From assembly GCF_004214935.1 (NCBI RefSeq), contig NZ_SFCC01000016.1, forward strand, positions 124,001 through 188,000: a stretch of DNA of 64,000 bases. The letters are read 5' to 3'. The stretch comes from Amycolatopsis suaedae. GTDB taxonomy: Bacteria; Actinomycetota; Actinomycetes; Mycobacteriales; Pseudonocardiaceae. Shown one piece after another: positions 1 through 50,956 of this stretch (positions are counted from its first letter, which is position 1; each line of letters begins with the position of its first letter). Both the position numbers and the translations under genes were made by a program. The notes below the pieces were generated by a model. It was given only the letters and a program-made list of their open reading frames with translations, was not told the origin of the DNA and ran no database searches.

Positions 1-1068
1 CTGCCCGGAGCCGACCCCGACTCCGGTGGCCTGCTGCGGCACGACGGCCCGGGCCCCGGCCTGGTGCCCTACCCGCTGCCGCACGGGGCCTATGCCGAGG
101 TGGACCTGCGGTTTCCCGGCCCGGAGGGCAGCGCGGGCATCGTGCTGCCCGGCGGGGCGGTGGTGACCGTCGAGGCGGCGGGGACGCTGCGGGCCGGGCA
201 CCGGGAGGTCCGCCTGCCGCCGGGGTGGCGGCCGGACACCTGGCACACGCTGTCCGTGCGGCAGCACGCCGGCCGGGTCACGGCGTGGCTGACCGCGGCC
301 CGGCTGGGTGATCCGGTGGCCGAGGTCGAGGCCGTCGCCTGGGGACCGGGCACGGCGGGCGTGCACGCGACCGGCACCGTGGAGCTGGACAACCTGTCGG
401 CCGCGCCCGCCGCCACCCGGCGGCACCGCGCAGACCCCGTTCCCGTGCCGGGGCGTTCGCTGCGGGAGCACTCCGACGACTTCGACGGCCCGAAGCCCGG
501 CTGGTCGTGGGTGCGTGAGCCGCAGGCGGTGCCGGTGCACGGGCGGCTGTTCTGGCCGGTCGCCGACGGTGACCTGGCCGGGCCGGGTGGCGGCGCGAGC
601 GTGCTGCTGCGGGACGCGCCCCGGGGCGGCTACGTCGTCGAGACCCGGCTGCGGCTGGATCTCGGCGCGGCAGGGGAGCGTGATCACCAGCAGGCCGGGC
701 TGATCGCCTACCGCGGTGACGACGACTTCGCCCGGCTCACCCACGTCGCCATCGGCGGCACGCGGCAGGTGGAGTACGTGCGGGAACTGCCGTTCGCCGG
801 GCGGCAGGCGTTCGGCGGGATGCCGGCGGGCACCGCCGCCGACGTCGTGTGGCTGCGGCTGGCGTACCGGCTGGAGCCGGGCACCGGGCGGCACCTGGTG
901 CGCGGGGGCAGCAGCCGCGACGGCCGGACGTGGACGTGGGGCGGCACCTGGACGTTCGACCCCGGCCCGGCCCCGCGCATCGGGCTGGTCGCCCACGGCG
1001 GCGCCCACCCGCCGGTCACGGCCGCCTTCGACTACTTCCTGGTGTCCCGTTTACGTCAGGACACGTGA
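1..1068 (+). CDS. C-terminal part of a secreted carbohydrate-active protein with two concanavalin-like beta-sandwich domains (5' end outside window)
   Basis: The frame is open from base 1, so this is the end of a longer protein; an in-frame GTG at 64 is probably internal. Two beta-sandwich-like segments are visible: one over about the first 140 residues, and a second from the DDFDGPKPGWSW segment to the stop, with the WLRLAYRLEPG and SRDGRTW strands typical of the C-terminal sandwich of GH43-type glycosidases or DUF1349-like lectin folds. No catalytic residues can be assigned because the N-terminal part is missing. The stop codon lies inside the palindrome that follows, so the hairpin begins before translation ends. 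A glycoside hydrolase accessory domain is my inference. Confidence 0.6.
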   Translation: MPGADPDSGGLLRHDGPGPGLVPYPLPHGAYAEVDLRFPGPEGSAGIVLPGGAVVTVEAAGTLRAGHREVRLPPGWRPDTWHTLSVRQHAGRVTAWLTAARLGDPVAEVEAVAWGPGTAGVHATGTVELDNLSAAPAATRRHRADPVPVPGRSLREHSDDFDGPKPGWSWVREPQAVPVHGRLFWPVADGDLAGPGGGASVLLRDAPRGGYVVETRLRLDLGAAGERDHQQAGLIAYRGDDDFARLTHVAIGGTRQVEYVRELPFAGRQAFGGMPAGTAADVVWLRLAYRLEPGTGRHLVRGGSSRDGRTWTWGGTWTFDPGPAPRIGLVAHGGAHPPVTAAFDYFLVSRLRQDT

Positions 1069-1114
1069 AGGCCACCTTCACCACGTCAGACGTAATGAAG
1101 GTGGCCTTCACGTG
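1062..1114. terminator. Perfect 19-bp-arm palindrome between convergent genes (family copy P1)
   Basis: CACGTGAAGGCCACCTTCA (1062-1080) and its exact reverse complement (1096-1114) flank a 15-base loop. It separates the partial plus-strand gene, whose TGA stop is inside the left arm, from the minus-strand gene ending at 1133. A bidirectional terminator is the natural reading. Close copies occur at 2526, 26436 and 36407. Confidence 0.75.
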
Positions 1115-2525: not shown

Positions 2526-2580
2526 GCACGTGAAGGCCACCTTCACCACGTCTCACGTAATGAAGGTGGCCTTCACGTGC
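2526..2580. terminator. Perfect 20-bp-arm palindrome (family copy P2)
   Basis: GCACGTGAAGGCCACCTTCA (2526-2545), a 15-base loop, and the exact reverse complement (2561-2580). It lies 9 bases beyond the stop of the minus-strand transcobalamin-like gene and upstream of the thioester-protein gene, so it probably ends the former transcript. Confidence 0.75.
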
Positions 2581-4056: not shown

Positions 4057-4159
4057 GGGATGACCTTTCTGCTGGGGACGGCATGGTCCCCGGGCAGCAG
4101 CCAGCTCGGACGCGCCCAGGCCCCAGGCGCAGTCCACGGCGCGTTGTGCGGAGCCCGTC

Positions 4160-4262
4160 CCCGGTGGGCATTCCGGCTCGCCCCCGTGCGGGGGCCTACG
4201 GTTGCGGGTCAGCGCCGGATTTCGACCGGCTTCCCCCAGCACGGGAACGTGCCAGGAAAAGC
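4160..4262 (-). promoter_or_regulatory. Cobalamin (B12) riboswitch
   Basis: Reading the minus strand, the leader contains GGGGGAAGCCGGTCGAAATC and then CCGGCGCTGACCCGCAACC (4202-4235), matching the conserved class core GGGAA..GGTG.AA.TCC..CxGxCCCGCxACTGT. A CCCCCGCACGGGGGC hairpin (4181-4195) and GAGCCGGAATGCCCACC (4163-4179) follow, where the family has GAGCC.GGA..CCTGCC. About 105 bases separate this core from the GTG start at 4056 and could hold the expression platform. Ligand-bound RNA normally turns the downstream gene off. Confidence 0.88.
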
Positions 4263-4300
4263 TAACAGCCGGACGGCCCCGGCGAATCGGCCGAACGTCG

Positions 4301-9011: not shown

Positions 9012-10061
9012 ATGAGGTTCAGCTTCGTCATGCTGCCCAACTACCCGGTCGATGAGACGCTCGCGTCGATCGAACTCGCCGACCAGCTGGGCTTTCACGC
9101 CTGCTACGCCGCCGACGAGACCTGGCACAAGGACCTCTGGTTGCTCTTCGCCGCGGCCGCCGCGCGCACCAGCCGGATCCGGTTCGGCCCCAGCCTGTCC
9201 GCCGTGACGCTGCGCGAGCCGACCATGATCGCGCAGGCCACCGCGACCCTCGACGAGCTGACCGGCGGGCGTGCCGAGTGCGTGCTCGGCTCGGGCAACT
9301 TCGGGCTGCTGGCCCAGTACGGGATCGACTGGGCCCGCACCAAGCCGCTGAGCCGCGTTGTCGAGGCGCACCACGTCGTGCGCACCATGCTGGACGAGGG
9401 CGCGATCACCCACGACGGCGAGTTCCACCGCTACCAGGGCCTGTTCACGTTCGCCCGGCCGGTGCAGCCGCGGGTGCCGGTGAAGCTCGGTGCCATGCGC
9501 GGGCCGCGCTCGTTCCAGGTGGCCGGTGAGATCTCCGACGGTGTGCACCACGCGCTGAGCTACACCCGGCGGGCCTACGAGTACATGGTGGACAACGTCG
9601 GCATCGGCGCCCGGCGTGCCGGCCGCGACGCCGCCACGCTCGACCTCGGCGCGTGGATCGTGTTCGCCGTCGGCCGCGACTCGGCCGCGGCCAAGAACGC
9701 GGCCCGCGCGATGGTCGGGCTCTACGCCTCGTCGATGCCCGCCGAACAGCTGGAACGCAACGACGTCGACCCGGCGGAGCTGACCGGCATCATCGCCGCG
9801 GTGGGCGAGGGCAGGGTGGACCGGGCCTACGAGCTGACCCCGCCGGAGCTGGCCGACCGCCTGTCGGTCGCTGGCACGCCCGAGGAGTGCCTGGCGAAGC
9901 TGCGCACGCAGATCGTCCCGGCCGGGGTGAACCACCTGATCTTCGCCATCACCGACGCCGCGCTGGTCAAGGCGTTCTCCGGGGTGGAACTCGACGGCGT
10001 GGCCACCATGGCGGAGCAGCTGCGGCTGATCCACGACGAGATCATGCCCGCCCTGCGCTGA
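9012..10061 (+). CDS. LLM-class (F420-dependent) oxidoreductase
   Basis: A 349-residue luciferase-like monooxygenase/MER-type TIM barrel with an excellent GGGAGG ribosome site. Family marks are visible: the FSFVMLPNYPVDETL first strand, RIRFGPSLSAVTLREPTMIA, the TLDELTGGRAECVLGSGN loop, and the C-terminal VAGTPEECLAKLRTQ. In actinobacteria such proteins usually use F420 (sometimes FMN) for hydride transfer to varied substrates. It stands alone, 145 bases after the permease and convergent with the next operon across a long repeat region, so context does not reveal the substrate. Confidence 0.82.
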   Translation: MRFSFVMLPNYPVDETLASIELADQLGFHACYAADETWHKDLWLLFAAAAARTSRIRFGPSLSAVTLREPTMIAQATATLDELTGGRAECVLGSGNFGLLAQYGIDWARTKPLSRVVEAHHVVRTMLDEGAITHDGEFHRYQGLFTFARPVQPRVPVKLGAMRGPRSFQVAGEISDGVHHALSYTRRAYEYMVDNVGIGARRAGRDAATLDLGAWIVFAVGRDSAAAKNAARAMVGLYASSMPAEQLERNDVDPAELTGIIAAVGEGRVDRAYELTPPELADRLSVAGTPEECLAKLRTQIVPAGVNHLIFAITDAALVKAFSGVELDGVATMAEQLRLIHDEIMPALR

Positions 10062-10078
10062 CGCGGCCGGGCGGACGG

Positions 10079-10630
10079 CGCGGCAGGGCCAGGTGGGGCG
10101 GTCTCGAGCGTGGAACTCGCGGGCTGGAATGCAGAACTCGCGTGCGTGAGTGCAGAACTCACGATGTGGAGCGGGTTCTCACGTGGTGCCGGTCGCCCGC
10201 GTGAACGGCTCGTTCGCGCGAGTCGTACGTTCTGACGCGCGAGTTGTACGTTCCCGCTTGCCTGGTCCCACGATCCGGCACCCCGGTTCTGGATCGTGAG
10301 ACCAGTCCTGTCCTCGTCTGGCCGAACGGGCCGCTCGCGCGGCCCTGTCGTTCAGGAATGCGAGTTTCGCGTTCCTGAACACGTCATTCACGTTCCTGAA
10401 CACGACACTCACCATCCGGACCCGGCGACCCAGTCCGTGAACCCACCTCACGCCAGGGGGACCTGCGGCAGGGCCAGGTGGCGACCCGCGAGTCGACCGT
10501 TCCGGACCCGCGAGTTGTCGGTTCCCGCCTGCGGGTCCCACTGCGTGGCACGCCGGGTCCAGACCGCGAGACCAGCTCTGTCGTCGCGTGCGCGAGTTTC
10601 GCATTCCCGAGCACGACACTCACCATCCGG
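10079..10630. repeat. Dispersed mosaic repeat, copy R1 plus a partial second copy
   Basis: This gene-free stretch is homologous to 36149-36400 and, inverted, to 49395-49713. The core (10104-10256) carries GAACTCGCG/GAACTCACG boxes on the left and CGCGAGT boxes followed by GTACGTTC on the right, so the halves are inverted relative to each other. Against the 36-kb copy I count 59 identical of 65 bases from GAGCGTGGAACTC onward. A second partial copy occupies about 10475-10625. Between them GTTCAGGAA ... TTCCTGAAC (near 10350-10379) forms another hairpin. It lies between convergent genes. Confidence 0.75.
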
Positions 10631-10762
10631 ACCTCGTGCGGCAATGAGAAGCGCGTGGATGTCCGTAGCTGGGCCCGAAGGCCGGGATGCCGATCCGCCG
10701 CCCGTCGACATCCCGGCCGTCCCGGGGACGGCGGGGGTGTCGCCGCCGTCGGCGTCGCGCTC

Positions 10763-20572: not shown

Positions 20573-21723
20573 ACCCGCTCGCCGCGCACTACACCCGGTT
20601 CCGGGTCGCCGAGCGGCTGCTGCTGACCGGGCACTCGCACCAGGCGTGGCCGGACGTCGCCGTCGAGGGCCAGCTGGCGGCGTTCGACGACGCGGCGTCC
20701 GATGTGGACGGAAAGTGGGCACGAGCCGCGGCGAAGGCCGACGAGGTGCGGGCCGCCGTACGGGGCTGGCTCGACGACCCGGACGCCGACATCGCGCTGG
20801 GCGGCAGCACCCACGACCTGGTGCTGCGGCTGCTGTCCGCACTGGACCTGCGGCACCGGCCGCGGCTGGTCACCACCGACGGGGAGTTCCACACCCTGCG
20901 CAGGCAGCTGACCAGGCTCGCCGAGGAGGGCGTCGAGGTGGTCTGGGTGCCCTCGGCGCCCGCGGACACGCTCGCTGCCCGGCTCGCCGAGCAGACCGAC
21001 GACCGGACCTGCGCGGTGCTGGTGTCGAAGGTGCTGTTCGCGACGTCGCGGATCGTCGGCGGGCTGGCCGAGCTGGCCGCGGCCTGCACGCGGCACGGTG
21101 CGGAGCTGGTCGTCGACGCCTATCACGCGCTCGGCGTGGCGCCGTTCTCCGTTCCCGGCGAGGGGCTGGGGCAGGCGTGGGTGCTCGGCGGCGGGTACAA
21201 GTACCTGCAGTACGGGGAGGGCAACTGCTTCCTGCGGCTGCCCGCGCACGCGCAGGCGCTGCGGCCGGTGATCACCGGGTGGTTCGCCGAGTTCGGTTCG
21301 CTGGACGGGGAGGCGTCCGGCCGGGTCGGCTACGCCCGTGGCGGCGACCGGTTCGCCGGGGCGACCTACGACCCGACCAGTCACTACCGGGCCGCCCGGG
21401 TGGCCCGGTTCTTCGCCGAGCAGGGCCTGACGGCGTCGCGGCTGCGGGAGATCTCGTTGCGGCAGACGACGTTGCTGGCGCGGCACTTCGACGAGCTGGA
21501 CCTGCCGCCGGAGGTGGTCACCAGGGACCGGTCGGCGCCGAGGGAGGCGTTCGGCGGGTTCCTGGCGCTGGAGTGCGCCGACGCGGCAGGCCTGTGCGCG
21601 GCGCTGGCCGGGCGCGGCGTGCGGACCGACAGCCGGGGCCGCTACCTCCGCTTCGGCCCGGCCCCGTACCTGTCCGACACCCAGCTCGCCGACGCCATGG
21701 CCGCGCTGGCCTCGGTCGTCTGA
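20569..21723 (+). CDS. kynU: Kynureninase (PLP-dependent, aminotransferase class V fold)
   Basis: A 384-residue PLP enzyme predicted to cleave kynurenine to anthranilate and alanine. LLTGHSHQAWPDVAVEG is the N-terminal substrate region, VVDAYHALGVAPF carries the Asp that contacts PLP, GGGYKYLQYGEGNCFLR the Schiff-base Lys, and VITGWFAEF the family W-x-A loop. Sequence alone could also fit a related class V enzyme, but the position directly after tryptophan dioxygenase makes kynureninase strongly favoured. Its GTG start overlaps the dioxygenase stop. Repeat DNA follows immediately. Confidence 0.88.
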   Translation: MNPLAAHYTRFRVAERLLLTGHSHQAWPDVAVEGQLAAFDDAASDVDGKWARAAAKADEVRAAVRGWLDDPDADIALGGSTHDLVLRLLSALDLRHRPRLVTTDGEFHTLRRQLTRLAEEGVEVVWVPSAPADTLAARLAEQTDDRTCAVLVSKVLFATSRIVGGLAELAAACTRHGAELVVDAYHALGVAPFSVPGEGLGQAWVLGGGYKYLQYGEGNCFLRLPAHAQALRPVITGWFAEFGSLDGEASGRVGYARGGDRFAGATYDPTSHYRAARVARFFAEQGLTASRLREISLRQTTLLARHFDELDLPPEVVTRDRSAPREAFGGFLALECADAAGLCAALAGRGVRTDSRGRYLRFGPAPYLSDTQLADAMAALASVV

Positions 21724-21728
21724 CCCGG

Positions 21729-21859
21729 CGCGAGTCCACCTCTCGCACCCCGCGAGTCCACCGTTCCCGCCCCGCGAGTTACACATTCGCGCCCGGCGGG
21801 AATGGTCAACTCGGGGGTGCCGAGTGGTGGACTCGCGGCGCCGGAGTGGTGGACTCGCG
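21729..21859. repeat. Nested inverted repeat of CGCGAGTCCACC boxes (R4)
   Basis: CGCGAGTCCACC occurs at 21729-21740 and 21751-21762 and its reverse complement at 21826-21837 and 21848-21859, with CGCGAGTT and a central spacer between. The two pairs can form one long cruciform. CAACCTGGGCGG then repeats twice near 21869-21904. It sits directly after the kynureninase stop and belongs to the same AACTCGCG-box family as the repeats at 10, 36 and 49 kb. Confidence 0.65.
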
Positions 21860-26435: not shown

Positions 26436-26490
26436 GCACGTGAAGGCCACCTTCATTACGTGAGACGTAGTGAAGGTGGCCTTCCCGTGC
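26436..26490. terminator. Palindrome family copy P3 between convergent genes
   Basis: GCACGTGAAGGCCACCTTCA (26436-26455), a 15-base loop, and TGAAGGTGGCCTTCCCGTGC (26471-26490), with one mismatched pair. It fills the 69-base gap between the convergent valine dehydrogenase and DUF5302 genes, ideal for terminating both. Confidence 0.75.
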
Positions 26491-35622: not shown

Positions 35623-36003
35623 TCAGCGCGGGTAGTCCTCGTAGCGCTCGCCCTGCCAGGGGCCACCACGTTGGCCCGGCCAGTCTCCGCTGTCCCGCCA
35701 GTCCGGTCCGCCCTGCCAGTGCGGGCGTGGCTGGCCGTACTCCCGCACGTGCCCCGGCCTGCCGGGACCGTCGGATGCCGCGACGATCGCCCCGACGACA
35801 CCGCCGCCGACGAGCATGCCAGCCAGCCCGACGCCGACCAGGGCCGTCGCCCGGTGGGCCAGCATCCTGCGGAACCGGCCCGGCGGCTTCGGCGCGGGCG
35901 GTGGCGGTGGCGGCGGTGGGATCGGCGGCGCGGCCTGCGGGGTCTCGGTCGTGGTCTCCTGTTGCTTCTCGGGTTCCTGCTCGGGTGTCTTCTCGTCGCT
36001 CAT
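35623..36003 (-). CDS. Small proline-rich single-pass membrane protein
   Basis: A 126-residue protein with AGGAG ribosome site. A charged Glu/Thr/Gln-rich N-terminus is followed by a Pro tract (eight consecutive prolines within PPIPPPPPPPPAPKPPG), a basic RFRRMLAHR, one transmembrane helix (ATALVGVGLAGMLVGGGVVGA) and a Trp/Gly/Arg-rich tail with WQGGPDWRDSGDWPGQRGG. The orientation rule predicts the proline-rich part in the cytoplasm. Function unknown; similar low-complexity proteins occur widely in actinobacteria. Confidence 0.75.
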   Translation of the reverse strand: MSDEKTPEQEPEKQQETTTETPQAAPPIPPPPPPPPAPKPPGRFRRMLAHRATALVGVGLAGMLVGGGVVGAIVAASDGPGRPGHVREYGQPRPHWQGGPDWRDSGDWPGQRGGPWQGERYEDYPR

Positions 36004-36148
36004 CTCGCACTCCTGGGTTGTGCCTGCGTCCAGGGTCGCGGCGGTTCCTGTGTGTGCGCTGATGCCAACCTGTCGATTCGATGAGGACGGCCGCCCCGGT
36101 GCCCTGGCACGTGCACTGCGCCGTCAGGGTCCCGGCAGAGTCCGGGGT

Positions 36149-36400
36149 GCGGCAGGGCGGTGGGTGGTCCCGAGCGTGGAACTCGCGTACCGGAACGCAG
36201 AACTCGCGTGCGTGAGCGTAGAACTCACGATGTGGACGCCGGTTCTCACGTAGCGCCGGTCACTCGCGCCAACGGCCCGTTCGCGCGAGTTGTACGTTCT
36301 CACGCGCGAGTCGTCCGTTCCGGACCCGCGAGTTGTCCGTTCCCGGCCACCTGGTCCACTGTCCGGCACACCGGGTCCAGATCGCGAACACCGGGCCTGG
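36149..36400. repeat. Dispersed mosaic repeat, copy R2
   Basis: This fills most of the 527-base gap before the LacI gene. It starts GCGGCAGGGCGGTGG, continues with GAGCGTGGAACTCGCG boxes, GCAGAACTCGCGTGCGTGAG and ATGTGGA, then inverted CGCGAGTTGTACGTTC boxes and a CACCTGGTCCACTGTCCGGC tail. It is homologous to 10079-10375 and, inverted, 49395-49713. A palindrome (P4) follows six bases later. I see no gene in 36004-36530. Confidence 0.75.
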
Positions 36401-36406
36401 GCACAA

Positions 36407-36461
36407 GCTCGTGAAGGCCACCTTCATTACGTCTCACGTGGTGAAGGTGGCCTTCACGTGC
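36407..36461. repeat. Palindrome family copy P4
   Basis: GCTCGTGAAGGCCACCTTCA (36407-36426) faces TGAAGGTGGCCTTCACGTGC (36442-36461) with one mismatch across a 15-base loop. Unlike the other copies it does not lie behind a gene: the left neighbour starts at 36003 and the right one at 36531, both reading away. It directly follows repeat R2. Confidence 0.7.
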
Positions 36462-36530
36462 TCTGCGGCTCGACGGACGCGGCGGCGGCTGATGCATGGT
36501 TTTGCAAGCCGCTGTTCCATAATTGCGGGC

Positions 36531-37550
36531 ATGAAGCAACAGACACGTCGGATCGCCGAGGTCGCCAAGCAGGTGGGCGTCAGCGAGGCCACCGTCAGCA
36601 GGGTGCTCAACGGCAGGCCCGGCGTGGCCGAGGCCACCAGAACCGCGGTGCTCACCGCGCTGGACGTCCTCGGCTACGAGCGGCCGACGCAGCTGCGCGG
36701 CGAGCGCGCCAGGCTGGTCGGGCTGGTCCTGCCCGAGCTGCAGAACCCGATCTTCCCCGCGCTGGCCGAGGTCATGGGCAACGCGCTGGCGCAGCAGGGC
36801 TTCACCCCGGTGCTGTGCACCCGCACCGCGGGCGGGGTGTCCGAGGCCGACTACGTCGACCTGCTGCTCAGCCAGCAGGTGTCCGGCGTCGCGTTCGCCG
36901 GCGGCCACTACGCGCAGGCCGAGGCCACCCACGAGCACTACCACCGGCTCGTCGAGCGTGGCCTGCCGACCGTGCTGCTCAACGCGGCGGTCGGCGAACT
37001 GGGGATGCCGCAGGTGTCCTGTGACGACGCGATGGCCGTCGAGCAGGCCATGGGGCACGTGCGCTCGCTGGGCCACGAGCGGATCGGGCTGCTGCTGGGG
37101 CCCGCCGACCACGTGCCGTCCCGGCGCAAGCAGGAGGCGTTCGAGAAGTGCCTGGTCGCCGCCGGGCTGCCGGTGCGCCCGGACGACGTCGCGCACGGCA
37201 TGTTCTCCCTGGAGGGCGGCCACGCCGGTGCCGCCCGCCTGCTCAAGCACGGCGTCACCGCGATCCTGTGCGCGAGCGACCCGCTGGCACTGGGTGCCAT
37301 CCGCGCGGCCCGGCGCGCGGGGCTGTCGGTGCCCGGTGACGTCTCGGTGGTCGGGTACGACGACTCGGCCATGATGCAGTGCGTCGACCCGCCGCTGACC
37401 ACCATCCGGCAGCCCATCGAGGCCATGGGCCGGGCCGTGGTCGAGCTGCTGGTGAAGCGCATCAACGGTGGTCACGTGCCCGCGGAGGAACTGCTCTTCG
37501 CTCCCGAGCTGGTCGTGCGCGCCTCCACCGGACGAGCGGCAGTCGAGTAA
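36531..37550 (+). CDS. LacI-family transcriptional regulator of the sugar ABC/GH13/GH99 operon
   Basis: A 339-residue repressor. RIAEVAKQVGVSEATVSRVL and LNGRPGVAEATRTAVLTAL form the HTH and hinge. The sugar-binding domain follows (VGLVLPELQNPIFPALAEVM, PADHVPSRRKQEAFEKCL, DVSVVGYDDSAMMQCVDPPL). A -10-like CATAAT (36518-36523) ends seven bases before ATG 36531, so a leaderless mRNA is likely. The octamer TTCCATAA recurs before the substrate-binding-protein gene (near 37571), and TTGCAA lies in its own promoter. It sits 87 bases upstream of the transport operon and presumably represses it until an alpha-glucoside is present. Confidence 0.87.
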   Translation: MKQQTRRIAEVAKQVGVSEATVSRVLNGRPGVAEATRTAVLTALDVLGYERPTQLRGERARLVGLVLPELQNPIFPALAEVMGNALAQQGFTPVLCTRTAGGVSEADYVDLLLSQQVSGVAFAGGHYAQAEATHEHYHRLVERGLPTVLLNAAVGELGMPQVSCDDAMAVEQAMGHVRSLGHERIGLLLGPADHVPSRRKQEAFEKCLVAAGLPVRPDDVAHGMFSLEGGHAGAARLLKHGVTAILCASDPLALGAIRAARRAGLSVPGDVSVVGYDDSAMMQCVDPPLTTIRQPIEAMGRAVVELLVKRINGGHVPAEELLFAPELVVRASTGRAAVE

Positions 37551-43391: not shown

Positions 43392-43421
43392 CCGCGAGTC
43401 GTACGTTCCGGGCCGGGCCCG

Positions 43422-48948: not shown

Positions 48949-49168
48949 GTGAAGGGGGCCCTCACTGCGTCTGATGTCAGGGTCCCGGCGAAGTCGGGCG
49001 CCGGGCGTGAGCAAGGGAGCTTTACTGGCGAAGAAGGGTAGTAAAGCTCCCTCGCTGCTTTACGGGTGTGGCTGGTGGGGCTGCCGTGGCCTGTGATGCC
49101 AGCGGGACACCTGGGATCGCGTGAAGGCCGAGCTCCTGTCGCCAGACGTGATGAAGGTGGCCTTCACC
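48949..49168. repeat. Cluster of hairpins downstream of the GntR gene, including a 17-bp stem
   Basis: GTGAAGGGGGCCCTCACTGC begins at 48949. At 49010-49026 AGCAAGGGAGCTTTACT faces AGTAAAGCTCCCTCGCT at 49040-49056 (one mismatch), a strong terminator-like hairpin. At 49120-49168 GTGAAGGCC ... GATGAAGGTGGCCTTCACC is a decayed copy of the P1-P4 palindrome. This covers the first third of the 829-base gene-free gap 48895-49723. Confidence 0.65.
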
Positions 49169-49374
49169 TACCTGACGCGAACCCGCCACGCGGGCACACC
49201 TGCCACACCGGCACCAGCCAGCACACCCACCCCACCAGCCACCACGAACGAGACAACACCCCCGCACCCCGCCGCCAGCAACGGCACCATACTTGCGCGA
49301 GACGCAACCACAGCGCCCCTGCCCACGGACCCAGACCGTCGCTGCCCACGACATTGCCGGGACCTCGACGTCTG

Positions 49375-49713
49375 ACGTAGTGAAGGGAGCCTTCACGGCA
49401 CAGTGACTGGTCGGGAATGCGACACTCGCGCTCCGGACCAGCAGGGCGCGCGACCGGCCCGTTCGGCCCCGCGAAACCGTGCCGGTCTCGCAGTCTGGAA
49501 CCGGCATGCCGGACAGTGGGACCAGACGGGCGGGAATGCGCAACTCGCGGGTCCGGAACGGACAACTCGCGCGAACGGACCGCTCACACAGCCGACCGGC
49601 ACGAGGCGGGAACCCGGTCCACATCGTGAGTTCTGCGCGCACGCACGCGAGTTCTGCGTTCCGGCACACGAGTTCTGCACTCGAGCCCACCCACCTCGCC
49701 CTGCCCGGCACCC
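49375..49713. repeat. Dispersed mosaic repeat, copy R3 (inverted), with half palindrome
   Basis: 49375-49396 holds TGACGTAGTGAAGG and CCTTCACGG, one half of the P-family palindrome. It is followed by an inverted copy of the mosaic element seen at 10 and 36 kb: CACTCGCGCTCCGGACCAG, CCAGACGGGCGGGAATGCGC, CAACTCGCG boxes, CATCGTGAGTTCTGCGCGCA, GCACACGAGTTCTGCACTCG and CTCGCCCTGCC at the end. Orientation and order (element then palindrome) match the 36-kb copy. 49200-49375 shows no gene or repeat I can identify. Confidence 0.72.
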
Positions 49714-49723
49714 GACTGTGCCT

Positions 49724-50956
49724 TCACGGCATCTGGCGAGCCAGGGGCGCGGACAGGTCGCGCATGCCGGGGGCCAGGGCGGCGTAGCCTGCCGAGAGCA
49801 GGCAGCCGGCACCGACCACGAGCCAGGTCTGTGCCACGCCGAGGTTCTCCACGAGCAGTCCGGCCGCGGTGGTGCCGAGCGGGCCGGCCAGCAACGCCAT
49901 CGAGCCGACGCTGCCGATCACGCGGCCACGCAGCCGTTCCGGGGTCTGCTCCTGCATGACCACGGCCGTGATCGGGTTGACCGGGGCGGCGGCGACGCCG
50001 ACGAGGGTGGCCAGCACGGTCATCCCGAGCACCGAGTCGAACAGGCCGAACGCCGCGATGCCCAGCGAGCAGAACGTCAGGCCCCACAACAGCACCGGCC
50101 GGCGCGGCAGGCGGTGCGCCACGATGCCGTAGACCACCGCACCGGCGACCCCGCCGACGGCGAACATCGCCGTCACCAGGCCCAGCTGCTCGGGCTGCCC
50201 GGCCCGCTGCAGCACCACGGTCAGCACGATCGGGATCGGCGCCAGGAACATCACCAGCACCATGGCCGTCAGCCCGGTACCGCGCAGCACCGGCGTGCGC
50301 CAGACGAACCGCAGGCCTTCCAGTACGGCGTGGACGTAACGCTGCGGCGGCTCGGTGCCACGCACGTCGGCGGGGATGGTGAACGTGGTCAGCAGCACCG
50401 CGCCGGCGAACATGGCGACCGTGACCCACAGCGTGTTGGACGCGCCGACCAGCGCGATCAGCACGCCGCCGATGCCGGGCGCGGCGATGTTGCCGATGCC
50501 GTCGAGTGCCTCACCCCAGGCGTTGATCCGCTCCAGCGGCGTGCGGGACGTCCTGGCGACGTCGGGGCGCAGCGATTCGCGCGCGGCCATGCCCGGCCCG
50601 TCGAACACCGCGCCCAGCGCGACCAGGACCGCGATCGTCACGCCGGTCAGTCCCAGCGTGCGGTCCAGCAGCGGCAGCGCAGCCACGGCGAGGCCGCTGA
50701 GGATGTCGGCGCCGATGCTCAGCCTGCGCCTGCCCCAGCGGTCGATCAGCGCACCGCCGAGCAGCGAGGACAGCGCCATGGGCCCCAGCGTGGCCGCGGC
50801 GATCAGCCCGGCCAGCGCGGCGCTGCCGGTGCGCTCCAGCACCAGCCACGGGATGGCCAGGTTGACGATGCCGTTGCCGGTGACGGACAGCCCGGTCGCG
50901 CCGAGCAGTCCGATGACCGGCAGCTGACGGCGCCAGCCGCTCTCGTGATCCGTCAC
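49724..50956 (-). CDS. MFS transporter (EntS-like exporter group)
   Basis: A 410-residue permease with twelve hydrophobic segments. SLLGGALIDRWGRRRLSIGA is the MFS loop 2-3 motif (DxxGRR), repeated more loosely as GIVAHRLPRRPVLLWGL between helices 8 and 9. AVFDGPGMAARESLRPDVAR and VNPITAVVMQEQTPERLRGRV are typical of MFS_3/enterobactin-exporter-like proteins. Probably exports a small molecule or drug. It is 42 bases after the saccharopine-dehydrogenase-like gene on the same strand and has an operator-like repeat just upstream of its GTG. Confidence 0.84.
   Translation of the reverse strand: MTDHESGWRRQLPVIGLLGATGLSVTGNGIVNLAIPWLVLERTGSAALAGLIAAATLGPMALSSLLGGALIDRWGRRRLSIGADILSGLAVAALPLLDRTLGLTGVTIAVLVALGAVFDGPGMAARESLRPDVARTSRTPLERINAWGEALDGIGNIAAPGIGGVLIALVGASNTLWVTVAMFAGAVLLTTFTIPADVRGTEPPQRYVHAVLEGLRFVWRTPVLRGTGLTAMVLVMFLAPIPIVLTVVLQRAGQPEQLGLVTAMFAVGGVAGAVVYGIVAHRLPRRPVLLWGLTFCSLGIAAFGLFDSVLGMTVLATLVGVAAAPVNPITAVVMQEQTPERLRGRVIGSVGSMALLAGPLGTTAAGLLVENLGVAQTWLVVGAGCLLSAGYAALAPGMRDLSAPLARQMP

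Follow-up and report, generated by a model that had tools for sequence, protein, structure and literature searches.

The window, by which we mean the whole 64,000-nucleotide stretch analysed here, contains three homologous copies of a repeat built from ACTCGCG boxes, together with smaller relatives, simple hairpins and one MITE that lacks the boxes (Table 1). A profile search recovered all three copies close to where an earlier note, made from the letters alone, had placed them, and the mosaic layout it described, with direct boxes in the left half, inverse boxes in the right half and the copies lying in long gaps, was borne out. The three relatives it had named at 10475, 21729 and 43393 are all real and differ in kind: the first is a partial copy, the second a separate array in which inverse boxes precede direct ones and the third a lone box.

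Copy 1 lies 16 nt past the end of a gene at 10061, and copy 2 lies between divergent gene calls (35623-36003 on the - strand and 36531-37550 on the + strand). None of the three copies has terminal inverted repeats (TIRs) at both ends: copy 2 has the left one only, and copies 1 and 3 have none intact. The first box of the separate array starts at the sixth base past a gene end at 21723, and positions 21724-21880 fold as a long hairpin (z = -6.96). Mixed 21- and 22-bp steps between boxes do not keep a reading frame. Taken alone, the heptamer is not surprising in this window, with 31 occurrences compared to 26.1 expected from shuffling. The elements had no match in Rfam at the gathering threshold; the sole match was a cobalamin riboswitch at another position in the window.

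Table 1 Features of the window, and intact boxed MITEs elsewhere in the source genome (G000)
Feature	Position	Strand	Description
Empty hairpin	1065-1111		Between convergent genes; overlaps gene end at 1068
Empty hairpin	2530-2576		Behind a - strand gene with its 3' end at 2590
Cobalamin riboswitch	4146-4271	-	37.6 bits
Box copy 1	10077-10442	+	Direct boxes 10115, 10136; inverse boxes 10217, 10238; then modules D and E
Partial copy adjoining copy 1	10484-10634	+	Inverse boxes and modules D, E; profile positions 215-384
Independent box array	21729-21859		Inverse boxes 21729, 21751, 21773 (22-bp steps), then direct boxes 21831, 21853
Empty hairpin	26440-26486		1 mismatch
Box copy 2	36117-36473	+	Without right-hand TIR; terminates in a complete simple hairpin
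Left TIR of copy 2	36125-36142	+	CAGGGTCCCGGCAGAGTC, 1 mismatch
Simple 'empty' 47-bp hairpin	36411-36457		GTGAAGGCCACCTTCAT-TACGTCTCACGTG-GTGAAGGTGGCCTTCAC
Single box	43393-43399	-	In a 30-bp gap with convergent gene ends on either side
Left half of host hairpin, split by MITE	48949-48965
Left target-site duplication	48967-48977		GCGTCTGATGT, 9 of 11 match the right one
ISAs1-type MITE without ACTCGCG boxes	48978-49367		TIRs 48978-48995 (0 mismatches) and 49350-49367 (3 mismatches)
Right target-site duplication	49368-49378		ACGTCTGACGT
Right half of host hairpin	49380-49396
Box copy 3	49406-49739	-	No intact TIR; adjoins the box-free MITE in the same gap
Intact boxed MITE (L004)	G000:C7:87441-87830		11 of 11 duplication
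Intact boxed MITE (L013)	G000:C12:77440-77894		11 of 11 duplication
Intact boxed MITE (L278)	G000:C18:28420-28793		11 of 11 duplication

Genome-wide distribution of the box arrays

The source genome is GC-rich and comprises 7.54 Mb in 32 contigs. Among the named genomes scanned, the closest by PurQ were Crossiella (86%), Actinocrispum wychmicini (85%) and Amycolatopsis circi (84%). The source genome contains 439 pairs of the form ACTCGCG-N12-16-ACTCGCG (boxes 19-23 bp apart), compared to 2 matches for the reversed pattern, and a BLAST search with window positions 10079-10375, in which 40 of 309 candidates were scored, gave at least 51 matches (E ≤ 0.01), confirming that the repeats form a dispersed family. 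Chance or base composition as the source of the repeats was ruled out by the reversed controls. Plasmid or phage carriage was likewise rejected, with window positions 36117-36473 finding no match in plasmid or phage collections at E 1e-3. Box-pair counts ranged from none to 154 in 35 congeners and were at background (0-3) in 24 genomes from other families of the order, a patchy distribution confined to the genus among the 60 genomes searched. Between species the heptamer is constant and the spacers vary, a conservation that is biased because the heptamer was itself the search anchor.

Arrangement and position were analysed in 1.264 Mb (1.2 Mb of the source genome plus the window), searched with a profile of 31 copies and with genes called by a simple codon-usage caller made for this analysis. 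In many copies the interior is a long imperfect palindrome of two to three direct boxes of the type GAACGNNNRACTCGCG, two to four inverse boxes and then further modules, with modules present on either side of the boxes. Boxes on the same strand were spaced by 21 bp in 43 cases and by 22 bp in 31; among spacings of up to 60, only 6 took another value. Spread along the chromosome was uneven, with zero box-element matches in G000:C22:1-200000, while C11 and the window were rich.

In the literature, motif strings of these repeats were found in one unrelated paper only, and the element was undescribed among the matches listed. A term search of the portions of PMC12306157 and PMC13155455 that were covered found the genus named in neither.

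Position behind genes and host hairpins

Box clusters stand at the 3' ends of genes. Of the 42 clusters in the 1.264 Mb, 41 lay in non-divergent gaps (24 convergent, 17 co-directional), and the single exception, in a divergent gap, was window copy 2; divergent gaps account for 143 of the 358 gaps of at least 100 bp, and their avoidance was significant (Fisher p 7.9e-8). Among the 41 clusters having a flanking 3' gene end, 32 were within 30 nt of one, and both orientations relative to the upstream gene were seen in co-directional gaps. The same placement was found in congeners G021 and G031, where 19 of 20 fetched arrays, from loci selected for box pairs, were in non-divergent gaps.

Many genes are followed by a simple hairpin with halves exactly 30 bp apart (GTGAAGGNNNCCTTCA...TGAAGGNNNCCTTCAC). 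We found 21 of these in the 1.264 Mb and hairpin halves in 65 gaps, one of them divergent. Like an intrinsic terminator, the stable hairpin stands directly past stop codons. The U-run of such a terminator is generally missing: when the eight bases following each of the 21 empty hairpins were inspected by eye, one had TTTT and the others at most TTT. At filled sites the halves are separated, and in many the insert starts with CAGGGNCCCGGCAAAGTC and ends with its inverse, while others contain different repeats. One hairpin family reaches an extreme in congener G001, in which a 17-bp palindrome, GTGAAGGNNNCCTTCAC, has 1231 copies in 6.9 Mb compared to 253 in the source genome (reversed controls, 0 in both).

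The orthologous site behind fba yielded no clean pair with and without an insert, and relatives have other hairpins or arrays there. Across 29 relatives, with one locus (L094) ending at a contig end, an array was found only in G007 (three boxes in register), and G015, G073 and G082 had single box matches. Behind fba in G018 and G006 (L105 and L115), other repeats follow the hairpin, with a AATGTCGGT motif recurring by eye in steps of ~23 bp; perhaps these are another box-array family in the same niche. The corresponding hairpin loop in G019 (L120) contains a stretch with an N, which we take to resemble sequencing-adapter letters and which is possibly an assembly artefact at the palindrome.

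A MITE carrier inserted in hairpin loops

Where copies in other parts of the genome are intact, they terminate in 18-bp inverted repeats, CAGGGNCCCGGCAAAGTC, and are flanked by a duplicated target of 11 bp that corresponds to the loop of the 47-bp hairpin behind genes. With at most one mismatch, the source genome has 105 forward and 85 reverse TIR sites, compared to 0 and 1 for the reversed control. Within the 1.264 Mb there are 49 such sites, distributed over convergent gaps (n = 23), co-directional gaps (n = 24), a divergent gap (n = 1) and coding sequence (n = 1). TIRs were paired with up to three mismatches per end, which gave 37 distinct pairs that span 99-719 bp, 30 of them within 350-540 bp; single sites found at this tolerance are mostly coding and due to chance.

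Flanks resembling the loop were present on both sides of 22 of the 37 pairs (one right end is common to two of these pairs). The loop triplet was directly equal in 13 of these 22, compared to a permutation mean of 5.6 (p 9e-5), with a palindromic match in only 2, and the 11-bp flanks were identical in 4. Over the whole flank, matching in pairs from the source genome was at the level of permutation (6.32 vs 6.21, p 0.36); because the targets are alike, the whole-flank test is uninformative in this genome and only the loop-triplet test discriminates. Rejoined flanks refolded into hairpins that had the duplication at their tip; z was -5.0 to -15.4 across 16 pairs from the source genome, and the weakest cases were z -2.4 in G005 and -2.0 in G019. 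The 16 pairs from the source genome (of 28) had been selected for flanks that agreed, directly or as a palindrome, at 8 or more of 11 positions; a further 6 of 9 pairs came from G005 and 5 of 7 from G019. Nearly all pairs were picked by flank similarity, and refolding therefore illustrates rather than tests the target.

The CAGGGNCCCGGCAAAGTC end was also above control in G001, G002, G005 and G019. The elements that it encloses in G005 and G019 are 97-500 bp long and have different interiors; the 11-bp duplication is perfect for three of nine G005 pairs (p 0.00035) and for one of seven G019 pairs (duplication test, p 0.079). At one G019 locus (L253) the duplicated letters, GCGTCTAGCGC, form the loop of the hairpin found behind fba in several congeners. 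A series of G005 loci (L234-L247) displays GAATGAGTCATTC palindromes that build both MITE interiors and host hairpins, an unrelated palindrome in the same roles.

Of 28 box elements in the 1.264 Mb, 12 have both TIRs, 10 have one and 6 have none; 636 control placements in 318 element-free gaps gave both ends in 0 cases, the left alone in 3 and the right alone in 10. That 16 of the 28 lack one or both TIRs weighs against the carrier model. None of the 20 array loci from G021 and G031 had a TIR end at up to two mismatches. Because these congeners have arrays without such ends, the array appears to be the older cargo and probably predates the carrier.

Relationship to the ISAs1 family

The ISAs1 family is described, in the sections of a Frankia paper used here (PMC11946415), as having ends of 14-22 bp that start with CAGGG and a 10-bp direct repeat. 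The MITE end CAGGGNCCCGGCAAAGTC agrees with this description, and so do the duplications, which measure 11 bp in the MITEs and 10-12 bp at six of seven congener IS sites. Among 40 genomes of the genus, 4 had matches to the ISAs1-family profile above the cut-off; these copies have CAGGGTTCCGGCAAAGT or CAGGGGCCCGGCAAAGT at their ends, which differ from the MITE end at one or two bases. Of seven such loci measured, three were flanked by a duplication of 11 bp, two by one of 10 bp and one by one of 12 bp, and the seventh had none. One transposase (L226) matches PF13808 and PF01609. A genome from another family of the same order, G053, has eight ISAs1 copies of 1353 bp with the end CAGGGCCCCGGCAAAGTCG, which is identical to the MITE end; one end has T for C in two of the eight copies, and a 10-bp duplication flanks seven. 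Because ISAs1 copies have near-identical or identical ends and duplications of 10-12 bp, we assign the carrier to this type.

Profile and protein searches found 0 matches to an ISAs1 transposase in the source genome, nor was one found in G002, G005 or G019, where the ends are present; G001 had only a short remnant. An autonomous partner in the source genome would be marked by TIRs that face each other at a distance of 1-3 kb; inspection by eye of the places listed (part of 190) showed no such pair. With no detectable ISAs1 gene there, the element is an orphan. The element is short, has TIRs and is flanked by a target-site duplication, as expected of a MITE, and insertion sequences with its ends exist in congeners and G053 and were not found in the genome itself. 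The name MITE is often used without the requirement for a parental IS in the same genome.

Autonomous congener ISAs1 copies had no strong hairpins at their sites (z +2.0 to -2.2; energies only for G053). The loop preference was thus seen for the MITE only. Inspected by eye, several complete ISAs1 copies in G017, G027 and G025 (L223, L226, L230, L232, L224) have flank letters in common, for example CCCTCCC, and, downstream, a stretch resembling CCAGTCTA, as if one repeated target had been entered.

Proposed origin and alternative explanations

We consider it likely that the repeats have two layers: an ISAs1-type MITE that inserts into hairpin loops behind genes, and a box array as its cargo. 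This reading draws on the ends, the duplications, the target loop, the nesting, the position behind genes and the palindromic interior, all of which are legible in the DNA itself. The sequence shows a non-autonomous, ISAs1-type miniature element inserted in the loop of the 47-bp hairpin, with 11 bp of that loop duplicated, and many copies carry the dyad box array, as a long palindrome, with further modules. Loop transposition, nested insertion and later truncation or recombination would have produced the mosaic. The ISAs1 transposase presumably acted in trans and has since been lost from the source genome. The hairpin behind a gene may be a bidirectional transcription terminator or a 3'-end protector, and a nested insert would preserve a long hairpin; for the array, a role as bidirectional terminator or as protein-binding array is suggested. 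The earlier picture of a dispersed, structured mosaic with many copies genome-wide is thus retained, RNA covariation excepted, and the ISAs1-type carrier, the hairpin-loop target and the nesting had been missed.

The box array could instead be the functional unit, with ACTCGCG bound by a putative protein at sites phased every two helical turns and dyad-symmetric, forming, behind genes, an insulator, a roadblock or a chromosome-organising array for which the MITE is a mere vehicle. Spacing is nearly always 21 or 22 bp in three genomes, and across 30 copies from the source genome conservation is higher in the box columns than in the remaining columns of the array (0.985 vs 0.903, p 0.0025, columns not being independent). 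Among G031 units anchored on the spacer, 38 of 54 keep CTCGCG, and the constancy of the heptamer, the differing spacers and the patchy, genus-only distribution also fit. However, the candidate protein is only postulated, a fixed period also arises from tandem duplication alone, and some G031 units have CACACG or CACGTG in place of the box core. We regard this explanation as unlikely. Somewhat more doubtful is a wider version, in which ACTCGCG arrays are a genus-wide, helically phased platform for a putative protein that was captured here by a loop-homing ISAs1-type MITE; if true, a transposon would have copied a regulatory or architectural array to more than 100 gene ends, as extrapolated from the 1.264 Mb.

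An origin without transposition is improbable in our assessment. Local palindrome growth, slippage and short-homology recombination would exchange modules by concerted evolution, and by eye there are mosaic junctions inside hairpin arms (C22:253691 and C22:368923); box number varies and copies can be bounded at one end only. Against this stand the TIR boundaries, the 11-bp duplications and the complete ISAs1 elements that share these ends.

We believe it quite improbable that the repeat is a structured non-coding RNA, or a regulatory element acting as RNA, that is conserved for its fold. Folding is strong: direct and inverse arms pair as one long imperfect hairpin, with z -6.35 and -7.59 in two window copies, in agreement with the earlier description of a structured element, and z -17.1 in one G031 array. 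In 30 aligned copies from the source genome, 97.3% of cells pair, compared to at most 53.7% in slid controls. Nonetheless, only one cell in these 30 copies was altered on both sides, compared to 0.5 in shuffles, and arms from the same copy paired no better than swapped arms in 29 copies (p 0.68). Swapping the outer arms of 25 filled hairpins was also negative (p 0.91). The covariation test that had been proposed for RNA structure therefore came out at the level of shuffling, and covariation in the source genome lends an RNA no support. In G031, based on 7 of 10 loci, arms from the same array did match each other better than arms exchanged between arrays, with the observed value reached in 37 of 5040 permutations, a point in favour of an RNA. 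The missing Rfam match and the occurrence of both orientations relative to the upstream gene argue against one, and since a palindromic insert folds anyway, folding is accounted for without RNA function.

REP- or BIME-type palindromes spread by a RAYT (Y1) transposase, which the hundreds of short palindromes behind genes might bring to mind, are very improbable and were rejected at the level tested, because TIRs with an 11-bp duplication are not of that type and Y1_Tnp (PF01797) was found in 0 of 40 genus genomes, including the source genome, compared to 5 of 14 control genomes.

Comparison with known elements and implications

With its CAGGG start, TIRs of 18 bp or more, direct repeat of 10-12 bp and ends shared with the complete G053 copies, the proposed carrier resembles the ISAs1 family; it differs in having no transposase gene and in targeting hairpin loops, whereas complete congener copies are not in strong hairpins. 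Its closest parallel in organisation is the BrickBuilt MITE of Porphyromonas gingivalis which, in the parts of its description compared here (PMC4596501), is likewise intergenic, has a tandem-array interior whose 23-nt unit covers roughly two helical turns, includes many copies with one or no TIR and shares its ends with complete IS elements. BrickBuilt differs in its IS5-type ends, its tandem repeats and its unrelated sequence, whereas the array described here is dyad-symmetric, and those parts do not describe a hairpin-loop target. Insertion into extragenic palindromes is shared with REP-targeting IS elements, for which the sections used of a survey (PMC1525189) name IS3, IS110, IS4, IS256 and IS5, with 0 occurrences of ISAs1 in the main text. 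The BOX, RUP and SPRITE repeats of Streptococcus pneumoniae, as characterised in the portions compared of PMC10969869 and PMC3049150, likewise form clusters of small repeats nested in one another, in some cases terminator-like, but they are other elements from another phylum.

MITEs with internal tandem arrays (PMC4596501) and IS insertion into extragenic palindromes (PMC1525189) are, in the parts of those papers compared, already known. As far as the literature searched shows, what is new is a MITE of ISAs1 type whose targets are hairpin loops behind genes and whose cargo is a phased dyad array. Many congeners also keep a phased box array behind their genes, and in the two that were examined it has no transposon ends. 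These results point to an element of transposon origin that finds safe sites in the hairpin loops behind genes, duplicates the loop and nests palindromes in palindromes, and they account for a class of long, puzzling gaps at the 3' ends of genes in this actinobacterial group.
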